The position numbers were made by a program, and so were the translations under genes. From the NCBI RefSeq assembly GCF_041154745.1, contig NZ_AP031573.1:1674001-1738000 (forward strand): a DNA stretch of 64,000 bases. Direction: 5' to 3'. Shown piece by piece: positions 40,654 through 42,387 of the stretch. The notes under the pieces are model-generated. The model made no database searches. It was not told the DNA's origin and saw only the letters and a list, made by a program, of their open reading frames with translations. This DNA is from Flavobacterium sp. CFS9. Its GTDB lineage: Bacteria; Bacteroidota; Bacteroidia; Flavobacteriales; Flavobacteriaceae. Positions within the stretch are counted from its first letter, which is position 1, and each line of letters begins with the position of its first letter.

Positions 40654-40842
40654 ATGAACTCAAATTTTATAGATACGTCTGAAAACATCTCCGATTCATC
40701 TGAGAAAGGACTTTTTAAAATCTCTAATAATCAAAAAACAGCGATTCTAAGAAGTAGAATAGAGATTGAAAATGGAAATTTTCATAAAAATGAAGACGTA
40801 ATTTCAGAAATAAGGAAATGGTTGAATAATAATCAAAAATAA
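40654..40842 (+). CDS. 62-residue antitoxin-like small protein
   Basis: The C-terminal half, ISNNQKTAILRSRIEIENGN followed by EDVISEIRKWL, has the 'NQK...L..R...I..G....E.V...I..WL' pattern of RelE-partner / addiction-module small proteins that wrap a toxin. The N-terminus is Ser/Asn-rich and probably disordered. It is 30 bases upstream of a 305-residue gene of unknown function; the same promoter should drive both. No RelE/ParE-like toxin is next to it, so it is either an orphan or partnered with the unusual downstream protein. Confidence 0.6.
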   Translation: MNSNFIDTSENISDSSEKGLFKISNNQKTAILRSRIEIENGNFHKNEDVISEIRKWLNNNQK

Positions 40843-40872
40843 CTTTAACTTTTTAATGTATAAGCTAGAGAT

Positions 40873-41790
40873 ATGCAAAAATTAGACTTCGTAAAAAATT
40901 TGGAAATAATTGTTAACGAACTTCAATCAGAAGAAATAAGCAATAAATTTAAAGAAGGATTTAACAGTCCAAGTGGTTATGGGTATTCTCAAATAAATGC
41001 TCCGATTTTCACATCAAAAAGTAATTTTGATAGATTAAAAAACGATGACAAATATCGTGAAATATTAAATAGTTTAGATGCTGATGACATTTATTCACCT
41101 CAAAATCTTTCTAATTTAACAATCATTTTACAAAACACTGGAGCTTTACAAATATTAGGCAATCCTATTTCTTCCAAATTTTTCAATTTTCATAACTCAC
41201 TAATAAACACCCTAAAAATTACTAAAGAAGTATTATTGAATGATACATTAGAAAAAAGCAATGAAAATAATCTTGAAGAAGGTATTTTACTATTTCAAAT
41301 TGTAATTGAAGAGGAAGGTCTTAGCACTGAAAAATATATAAAAATCTTTACAGCACTACAGGAATTGATTTCAGTTATTAGTAAAATTGAAAGTGAAGAG
41401 CAATTTGAATCCGAAATTATCTTATTAGATAGTGGTAGTGATACTAATTTAGGTATAAAAACTGGTATTGAAACTGCTAAATCATTATTCCTTATTTTTA
41501 AAGAATTTTGGGATTTCTGTATAAATCATAAGCACTACAAAGCTAAATTAGAAAATGTTTCCTTATTAGAAAGTCTATCAGTAAGAGAGGAAATTAAGAA
41601 CAAAGTAGAAGCGGGTGTTATAACAGAAGATGAAGGAAAGGAATACATGCACTTAGTTAAAACAAGAACAGATGCCTTAATTGGATTAAAAGTTTTACCA
41701 AAAGTAATTGTAACTGAAACTAATCACGTTGATAATCAAAAATTGATTGCTGGTTTTGAAGGAACAAAGTTTTTAACTGCCGGAGAATAA
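40873..41790 (+). CDS. protein of unknown function, AT-rich accessory-like gene
   Basis: 305 residues; I recognise no domain. It is predicted mostly helical with several Ile/Leu/Glu-rich stretches (FQIVIEEEGLSTEKYIKIFTALQELI read in parts), a Gly-containing segment DSGSDTNLGIKTGIETAKSLFLIF, and a charged C-terminal helix (LSVREEIKNKVEAGVITEDEGK). No signal peptide or clear membrane span. The gene is more AT-rich than metG or the DUF2461 gene and sits between a housekeeping gene and an RNA candidate, which suggests later insertion. Probably cotranscribed with the antitoxin-like gene. Confidence 0.7.
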   Translation: MQKLDFVKNLEIIVNELQSEEISNKFKEGFNSPSGYGYSQINAPIFTSKSNFDRLKNDDKYREILNSLDADDIYSPQNLSNLTIILQNTGALQILGNPISSKFFNFHNSLINTLKITKEVLLNDTLEKSNENNLEEGILLFQIVIEEEGLSTEKYIKIFTALQELISVISKIESEEQFESEIILLDSGSDTNLGIKTGIETAKSLFLIFKEFWDFCINHKHYKAKLENVSLLESLSVREEIKNKVEAGVITEDEGKEYMHLVKTRTDALIGLKVLPKVIVTETNHVDNQKLIAGFEGTKFLTAGE

Positions 41791-41828
41791 AAAAGAATAC
41801 TTTTCCTACTTTTCTTAAGTTTTAGTTG

Positions 41829-41836
41829 TATCTTTG
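41829..41836 (+). promoter_or_regulatory. -7 promoter box of the structured RNA
   Basis: TATCTTTG; initiation five bases downstream gives G41841, exactly the first base of the 17-bp closing stem. Confidence 0.6.
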
Positions 41837-41840
41837 CTTT

Positions 41841-41953
41841 GCAAAACATTACCAAGGAGAAATCCTAAAAACTTATCTAAATTAACATAAGCGTATACCA
41901 CGTCACGGTGAAGGTATGGGAAACCACCTAAATCATTCCTTGGAATGTTTTGC
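41841..41953 (+). ncRNA. candidate structured RNA (6S-like or cis-regulatory leader)
   Basis: Closing stem of 17 bp with one bulged A: GCAAAACATT(A)CCAAGGA (41841-41858) with TCCTTGGAATGTTTTGC (41937-41953). It encloses a large unpaired bubble and an apical hairpin ATACCAC (41895-41901) / GTG-aa-GGTAT (41908-41917). A promoter box sits exactly upstream. A long rod with central bubble is the layout of 6S RNA, and Flavobacteria have a divergent 6S class, but I cannot match the sequence. Alternatively it is a leader for the gene at 41995: ATACCACG (41895-41902) can instead pair with CGTGGTAT (41964-41971). Confidence 0.5.
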
Positions 41954-41994
41954 ACACCTAAAGCGTGGTATTCGTGTATCTAATATTTTCTATT

Positions 41995-42270
41995 ATGCAA
42001 AAAGAAAATCAAAAACCAACACAACAAGACGTACTGCCAGCGGTGGCAAAATTTCTTTCCTTTCTTTGGATGGAAGGAGAATTTAGAGAACAACCGGAAT
42101 ATTTGTCCGAGATTTTCGAGGCAATTCTGGAAACAGAGATTGGTGACAACCAGGAGCTGCGCACTAAAATGATAAGCTGTATGAAAACCATTAAAATGCT
42201 GACCCAGGCACTTGATCCTTTTAGCGATCAGCAAATTGCAGAGGCCAGCAATAAAATTGCTACAGCTTAA
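41995..42270 (+). CDS. 91-residue conserved-looking protein of unknown function
   Basis: Start at ATG 41995; an in-frame GTG at 41965 lies in the possible regulatory stem and is less likely. The protein is helical, without signal or membrane span (QQDVLPAVAKFLSFLWMEGE, EQPEYLSEIFEAILETEIGD, MKTIKMLTQALDPFSDQQI). No family recognised. It is 42 bases behind the structured RNA and followed by a strong terminator, so RNA and gene form one unit. Confidence 0.7.
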   Translation: MQKENQKPTQQDVLPAVAKFLSFLWMEGEFREQPEYLSEIFEAILETEIGDNQELRTKMISCMKTIKMLTQALDPFSDQQIAEASNKIATA

Positions 42271-42280
42271 ACACTCTCTT

Positions 42281-42321
42281 AAACGCGTGAAATTAGTAAT
42301 CAATTCACGCGTTTCTTTTTT
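42281..42321 (+). terminator. intrinsic terminator
   Basis: 11-bp stem AAACGCGTGAA (42281-42291) / TTCACGCGTTT (42304-42314) followed by CTTTTTT. Confidence 0.9.
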
Positions 42322-42387
42322 GATGTTTTATTTAAAAAAAAGTGAGAACTTAGCAAAATCAGCCTCTGGATTAAAAATACGCATTAA

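Follow-up and report, generated by a model that had tools for sequence, protein, structure and literature searches.

The nearest characterized relatives of the RNA described here are the C4 RNAs of phages P1 and P7 (RF01695) and c4-a1b1. In the portion of PMC5320573 drawn on here and below, these RNAs have three stem-loops and are processed from a longer transcript, phage C4 RNA by RNase P; they bind ribosome sites of their targets, their variable loops pairing at or before the site, and a change of a few bases sets their specificity. The portion of PMC2864571 that we used records C4 RNAs for Proteobacteria and phages. Rfam holds a further family, c4-2 (RF02944, clan CL00128), so that c4-2 itself is already known and named. 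Its name was reportedly taken from C4, which suggests that the authors of the family noticed the likeness. In the literature that we searched, we found no description of covariation among a leader, a guide and a start codon, of the subtype that we call type B below, of a location beside phage tail genes or of a chromosomal module.

The window analysed here is a stretch of 64,000 nucleotides (64 kb) from Flavobacterium sp. CFS9. The sole Rfam match at gathering score within it is to c4-2: an RNA core at 41896-41972 (+ strand) covers the complete model (positions 1-79) with 55.1 bits, against a gathering score of 41, and has the P1, P2 and P3 of the family. A first-pass annotation of this DNA, made from its letters, had read the structure as a 6S RNA and proposed a search with the Rfam 6S-Flavo, 6S and SRP models. 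Among matches listed to an E-value of 10, none to a 6S or SRP model lies over 41780-42010. The best 6S-Flavo (RF01685) match of the genome lies about 0.8 Mb away (C1:910397-910505; 74 bits, with a family cut-off of 85). The precursor does resemble 6S-Flavo RNA in that its computed minimum-energy fold is a long rod with an internal bubble, but no 6S model matches at this locus, a 6S-Flavo-like locus sits elsewhere in the genome, and the conserved fold is not a rod; we therefore regard a 6S RNA as extremely improbable. The same annotation had suggested that the RNA may be new. This is incorrect for the family, which is in Rfam, but has some merit for the subtype, as only 16 of the 40 type-B loci tested reach the c4-2 threshold and 24 fall under it.

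The locus appears to form a single unit consisting of promoter, RNA, small ORF and terminator, all on the + strand. A -7 promoter box, TATCTTTG, of the Bacteroidota TAnnTTTG type is found at 41829-41836, and similar boxes occur upstream of homologues. In Flavobacterium psychrophilum, boxes of this type span -12 to -5 (PMC9723704, in the part of that source available to us), a spacing that predicts a transcription start at the G at 41841. As the first-pass annotation had claimed, this is the first base of a long stem, and its proposal of a structured RNA with its own promoter is supported by homologues: in 61 of 62, a TAnnTTTG-like box precedes the first paired base by 4 nt (54 homologues) or 5 nt (7 homologues), and in the remaining one, L080, our script misplaced the box. 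The transcript would thus begin with a leader (41841-41858) that contains a copy of the target address together with a stretch complementary to the loop and 3′ arm of P3, and that can pair with 41937-41953. The core follows, with P1 (41897-41903 pairing with 41963-41969, extended by 41892-41894 with 41972-41974), P1b (41907-41910 with 41955-41958), a P2 hairpin with a GAAA loop (41913-41928; the window copy lacks the outermost consensus pair, with a gap in alignment column 117) and a P3 hairpin (41934-41947; arms 41934-41938 and 41943-41947). The single-stranded linker between P3 and P1b, TTTTGCA (41948-41954), is what we call the guide. Some 20-25 nt beyond the RNA is the ATG of a 91-aa ORF (ORF B, 41995-42270), the apparent target, whose start, ATGCAAAA (41995-42002), bears the address. 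A terminator-like end of the unit (42281-42322) consists of a perfect 11-bp stem with a 12-nt loop, then CTTTTTTG; a simple terminator scan missed it, as the loop limit of the scan was 8. On the promoter side of the module, ORFs of 62 and 305 aa (40654-41790) separate metG from the RNA. Neither has a Pfam, NCBIfam or PHROG assignment, and the 305-aa ORF was found in none of the other 133 loci searched; the two are an accessory insertion.

A search for relatives of ORF B across 299 genomes of the genus, the window's own among them, gave 89 matches spread over 49 genomes. We took in 87 of these, leaving out a 51-residue partial match (in genome G274) and a copy in G015 that duplicates locus L015. 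The RNA is found upstream of the ORF in 64 of the 87 loci; a further locus, L118, was flagged by pattern and excluded by eye. We aligned 62 distinct sequences, from directly after the promoter box through codon 6, and their consensus is the c4-2 fold, consisting of P1, P1b, P2 and P3. Compensatory changes occur in 16 of its 23 pairs, and each of the five P3 pairs varies on both sides in some row of the alignment. In this core fold, 97.2% of cells are paired and the covariation score is 0.458, versus 0.185 in shuffled alignments and at most 0.131 when the pairing is slid. The first-pass annotation had called for exactly such an analysis, and covariation is found both in the c4-2 stems and in a helix between leader and guide.

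This helix explains the shape that the first-pass annotation described. The 166-nt stretch folds to -36.9 kcal/mol, compared with -26.1 +/- 3.4 kcal/mol for shuffled sequences (z -3.18; 1 of 200 shuffles as good), and the minus strand folds nearly as well (z -2.58), as expected for an inverted repeat. The rod is what the unprocessed transcript is computed to form at minimum energy, and the pairing of guide with leader makes up its long stem. The closing stem of 17 bp that had been proposed does pair (41841-41858 with 41937-41953; one bulged A, -25.3 kcal/mol), although it is this alternative pairing and not the conserved structure; similarly, the rod with its bubble and apical hairpin (41895-41917) is recovered by computation, but is not the conserved fold of the 62 homologues.

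The guide has two complements, one at the 5′ end of the transcript and one in the ORF start ATGCAAAA. In relatives, the guide variants TTTTGTCA, TTTAGTCA, TTTTGACA and TTTTAGCA correspond, with small variations, to the ORF starts ATGACAAAA, ATGACTAAA, ATGTCAAAA and ATGCTAAGA, and the leader varies in step with both throughout the 62 related RNAs. Guide and start form standard pairs in 97.6% of cells (62 rows); the covariation score is 0.463, versus 0.118 after shuffling, and sliding the pairing by 1-3 columns leaves at most 0.083. The leader-guide helix of six pairs is paired in all 62 rows, and three of the six pairs vary on both sides. The address lies directly at the ATG in 63 of 64 loci, the exception having ATA instead, and a simple script finds an exact 5-nt match in the leader, likewise in 63 of 64. 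Among 61 distinct type-B loci, the longest complement of the guide averages 10.3 nt in the leader and 7.3 nt at the start, versus 6.7 and 5.6 nt with swapped guides, and in neither case did any of 2000 swaps reach the true value; since the start region is A-rich, part of the complementarity between guide and start arises by chance, as the swapped mean of 5.6 nt reflects. In the same 61 loci, the duplex of guide and own leader has a mean energy of -22.5 kcal/mol, versus -12.2 kcal/mol when guides are swapped freely and -16.1 kcal/mol when they are swapped within one address class, where 2000 swaps never fell below -18.1 kcal/mol. The leader thus tracks P3 too, beyond the address. Shuffling, here as for the core fold, leaves kinship among the sequences in place; sliding the pairing as a control, together with the recurrence of five types of address, answers this in part. 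Guide and start form a short duplex (median about -8 kcal/mol), which in 64 of 64 loci is weaker than that of leader and guide.

We think it likely that the locus comprises a C4-type antisense RNA and its target gene, the RNA repressing translation at the start codon and the leader serving as a lock. By analogy with C4, antisense repression at the start codon is the most likely function. The RNA would adopt the c4-2 core and expose the short guide between P3 and P1b, and the guide would pair with the ATG and the next two codons of the adjacent ORF, as opposed to the bases just 5′ of the ATG in the classical c4-2 loci described below. Since translation in flavobacteria does not depend on Shine-Dalgarno sequences, initiation would be stopped by masking the start codon itself. 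The leader, 18 nt at the very beginning of the primary transcript, is a copy of the target lengthened to take in the P3 loop and 3′ arm as well, and its pairing with the guide is much the stronger. It would probably lock the guide until removed or otherwise made unavailable, whereupon the freed RNA would silence the ORF. Because the leader is the stronger partner in all 64 loci, repression in cis requires that it be removed or occupied, and the uncut transcript should be the ‘on’ state and the trimmed RNA the repressor. One observation that we count against a freed RNA is that type-B RNAs have no clear U-tract after P1.

The strength of the leader duplex could also be read differently, with the leader copy as a second target in trans. 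The mature RNA would then bind nascent leaders, stopping transcription or triggering decay, which would amount to autoregulation and involve no lock. That the leader is the stronger partner of the guide, and tracks it locus by locus even within an address class, would fit this idea, but the same data are compatible with a lock, and we consider the second target unlikely.

Two further subtypes, A and C, make up what we call the classical c4-2 loci. There, the guide is the P3 loop, and its target is a repeat found at the 5′ end of the RNA and just 5′ of the ATG, whereas the type-B guide is the linker between P3 and P1b. The classical ORFs have about 72-89 aa in type A and 81 aa in type C, and BLAST finds no relationship of their proteins to the ORF B protein. 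In 30 classical loci, the longest complement averages 7.17 nt on the 5′ side and 7.20 nt on the 3′ side, versus 4.91 and 4.94 nt when swapped, and 0 of 5000 shuffles were as high. A match of at least 6 nt exists on both sides in 25 of the 30. The other five (L004, L019, L027, L120 and L121) fall short of it on one or both sides; L027 has no 3′ match, and the 5′ match of L019 is weak. L029 is formally one of the 25. Its leader, however, fits the guide of the neighbouring L010, so chance probably accounts for the 5′ match to its own guide. The RNA of L004 (1501-1580) lies in tandem with L001, and its loop matches an address used by L016 in another genome, so its target is possibly located elsewhere.

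These loci bear on a serious rival, namely a leader switch acting purely in cis. The RNA would stay on the mRNA and its guide would pair either with the leader (ORF on) or with the start (ORF off), as decided by some ligand, protein or folding rate. Such a switch would accord with leader, RNA and ORF apparently forming one unit with a single promoter and a single terminator, with the short spacing between RNA and ATG, with the covariation of both pairings and with the lack of a U-tract at the end of type-B RNAs. However, a terminator-like run of at least four T ends the RNA in 21 of 27 classical c4-2 loci, the RNAs of L004 and L029 have no adjacent small ORF of 50 aa, and the nearest characterized relative works as an excised RNA (PMC5320573, same portion). 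We give the cis-acting switch real weight while judging it on the whole improbable.

The antisense reading implies comparison with C4 itself. As in C4 RNAs, a variable unpaired stretch complements sequence around the start of the adjoining gene. In C4, RNase P generates the 5′ end of an RNA of about 77 nt. The differences are that the host belongs to the Bacteroidota, that the type-B guide lies in a linker and not in a hairpin loop, and that the target is the start codon. C4 has two guide loops, a′ and b′, whereas only one guide is evident here, the P2 loop occurring in a few conserved types. The gene adjacent to C4 in P1 encodes an antirepressor. Here, by contrast, the adjacent genes encode small helical proteins, in phages beside tail genes.

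In chromosomes, the module has a preferred site. Judging from flanks of 0.4-1.5 kb, metG lies upstream in at least 32 of the 87 loci, and the EamA gene of the window is found in at least 13. The metG site accounts for 33 loci, counting the window's: 15, 12 and 5 of them carry three different addresses, and one has lost the RNA. A chromosomal module beside metG is retained in many Flavobacterium species. The ORF at this site is under purifying selection, with a median dN/dS of about 0.26 (393 of 406 pairs, 29 sequences). The predicted model of the 91-aa protein is a helical bundle (mean pLDDT 86.6), and a structural search with it gave no informative match. A further 23 ORF B loci (22 by script, plus L118) have no recognised c4-2-like RNA, and 18 of them share another upstream neighbour. 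An open frame of at least 80 aa is present in 20 of these 23 copies and in 61 of the 64 with RNA, which indicates that the protein does not need the RNA. In L033 and L104, which are ORF B copies without the RNA core, a leader-like stretch persists and the starts, ATGAAAA, bear no address.

A small ORF with an antisense RNA at its start is also the arrangement of a type I toxin-antitoxin pair, in which the RNA would be the antitoxin of a toxic small protein, and genomes hold several separate RNA copies, those of the window's genome differing in address. However, known type I toxins have a hydrophobic stretch, and none is seen by eye in the 91-aa protein, which is predicted to be a helical bundle. 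Moreover, a toxin should not tolerate the loss of its RNA, yet most copies without a recognised RNA stay open, and RNA and ORF are here on the same strand. We consider a toxin-antitoxin pair very unlikely.

The preferred antisense module also occurs in phages. A blastn search with the window module matched 12 Flavobacterium phage records, with matches that extend over the RNA and no further than the first codons of the ORF; six of the 12 were examined and belong to Unahavirus (Duneviridae). Using R1, a model that we built from the 62 aligned sequences, together with further viral loci from pattern searches of IMG/VR, we found matches in 17 of 51 viral loci searched; six of the 17 are the annotated phages, and some of the 17 are near-duplicates of one another. 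Leader, guide and ORF start agree in all 17, with five addresses that are the same as the chromosomal ones. Where the contig continues, the order is mostly RNA, small ORF1, ORF2 and a long gene. ORF2 is phrog_38077 in all three cases scanned, and the long gene, wherever a scan (L224, phrog_25337) or an annotation (phages FPSV-F7 and FPSV-D15) exists, encodes a tape-measure protein. The window ORF has relatives in ORF1 of L224 and of L229 (38% and 37% identity; E-values 2e-15 and 9e-14), and the remaining viral ORF1s are more distant (9e-6 to 0.006). In phage 6H, the ORF after the RNA is 34 aa, and in phage 23T ambiguous bases make it unreadable. For a tail assembly chaperone, a small gene directly before the tape-measure gene would be expected; ORF1 precedes ORF2 and a tape-measure gene, but it is missing in L209 and L219, where the address lies at the start of ORF2 itself, and the PHROGs matched have no assigned function. 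Three of the 87 loci (L115-L117) are prophage-like, with the phage ORF2 downstream. A tape-measure query found no match in the 87 loci, partly owing to the short stretches, and a longer stretch of the L115 locus (genome G219) contains a 1456-aa ORF with a tape-measure-like start.

Otherwise near-identical loci can carry different addresses. Phage locus L193 (protein start MQKEN) and viral contig L210 (MTKEN) encode proteins that are 100% identical from residue 8. The same holds for two chromosomal loci at the metG site, L035 and L038, whose addresses are TTGCA and AGTCA. According to the same portion of PMC5320573, the specificities of P1 and P7 are set by a 4-nt deviation in C4 and its targets, and by analogy these swaps look like specificity groups under C4-type control. 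The phage module would then control the first gene of the cassette preceding the tape-measure gene, and the address changes between near-identical phages would resemble heteroimmunity, while chromosomal copies, the window's included, would have been retained as a regulated gene. More speculatively, phages and hosts might share this short-address silencing module for exclusion between phages and for host defence: chromosomal RNAs, which at the metG site switch among the addresses found in phages, might silence, in trans, the tail-gene cassette start of incoming Flavobacterium phages whose address matches, and phages might escape by a triple address swap; we find this role in immunity doubtful.

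The window's genome contains five copies of c4-2. Just upstream of its tandem pair at C1:2461614-2461866 lies a Flavo-1 RNA (RF01705, 79.9 bits; L001 1177-1254, - strand). With searches whose filters lose weak matches, we found c4-2 in 11 genomes from a set of 100 relatives and, above cut-off, in 10 of 395 genomes across the phylum, in each case counting the window's own genome and all within the same genus. R1 also matches 10 of the 395. The window's genome and eight others of its genus account for nine of these, and the tenth, G492, belongs to another family of the class; in G492, the guide matches a ATGCAAAAAG start and the protein is a different one, of 117 aa. A weak c4-2 match (36 bits, below the cut-off) occurs in another family of the phylum (L367, G478:C21:14000-17500), and its loop may pair near the start of the next gene. 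At a prophage-like locus of G219 (L368, 4092-4373), R1 scores only 21.7 bits (E 0.22) and the core has diverged, but leader, guide and start still correspond by eye, as a GCGAAA type, so the architecture of leader, guide and start may outlive the sequence of the core.

If the antisense reading is correct, the c4-2 family, which the literature that we searched presents as a structure only, would gain a concrete and testable mechanism, in which one guide fits both its own leader and the neighbouring start codon. Antisense control of the C4 type would be extended from proteobacterial phages to the Bacteroidota, where the start codon itself would be masked. Chromosomal modules would be connected with tail-gene cassettes in phages of Flavobacterium, and the swapped addresses of near-identical loci offer apparent specificity groups that can be tested directly.
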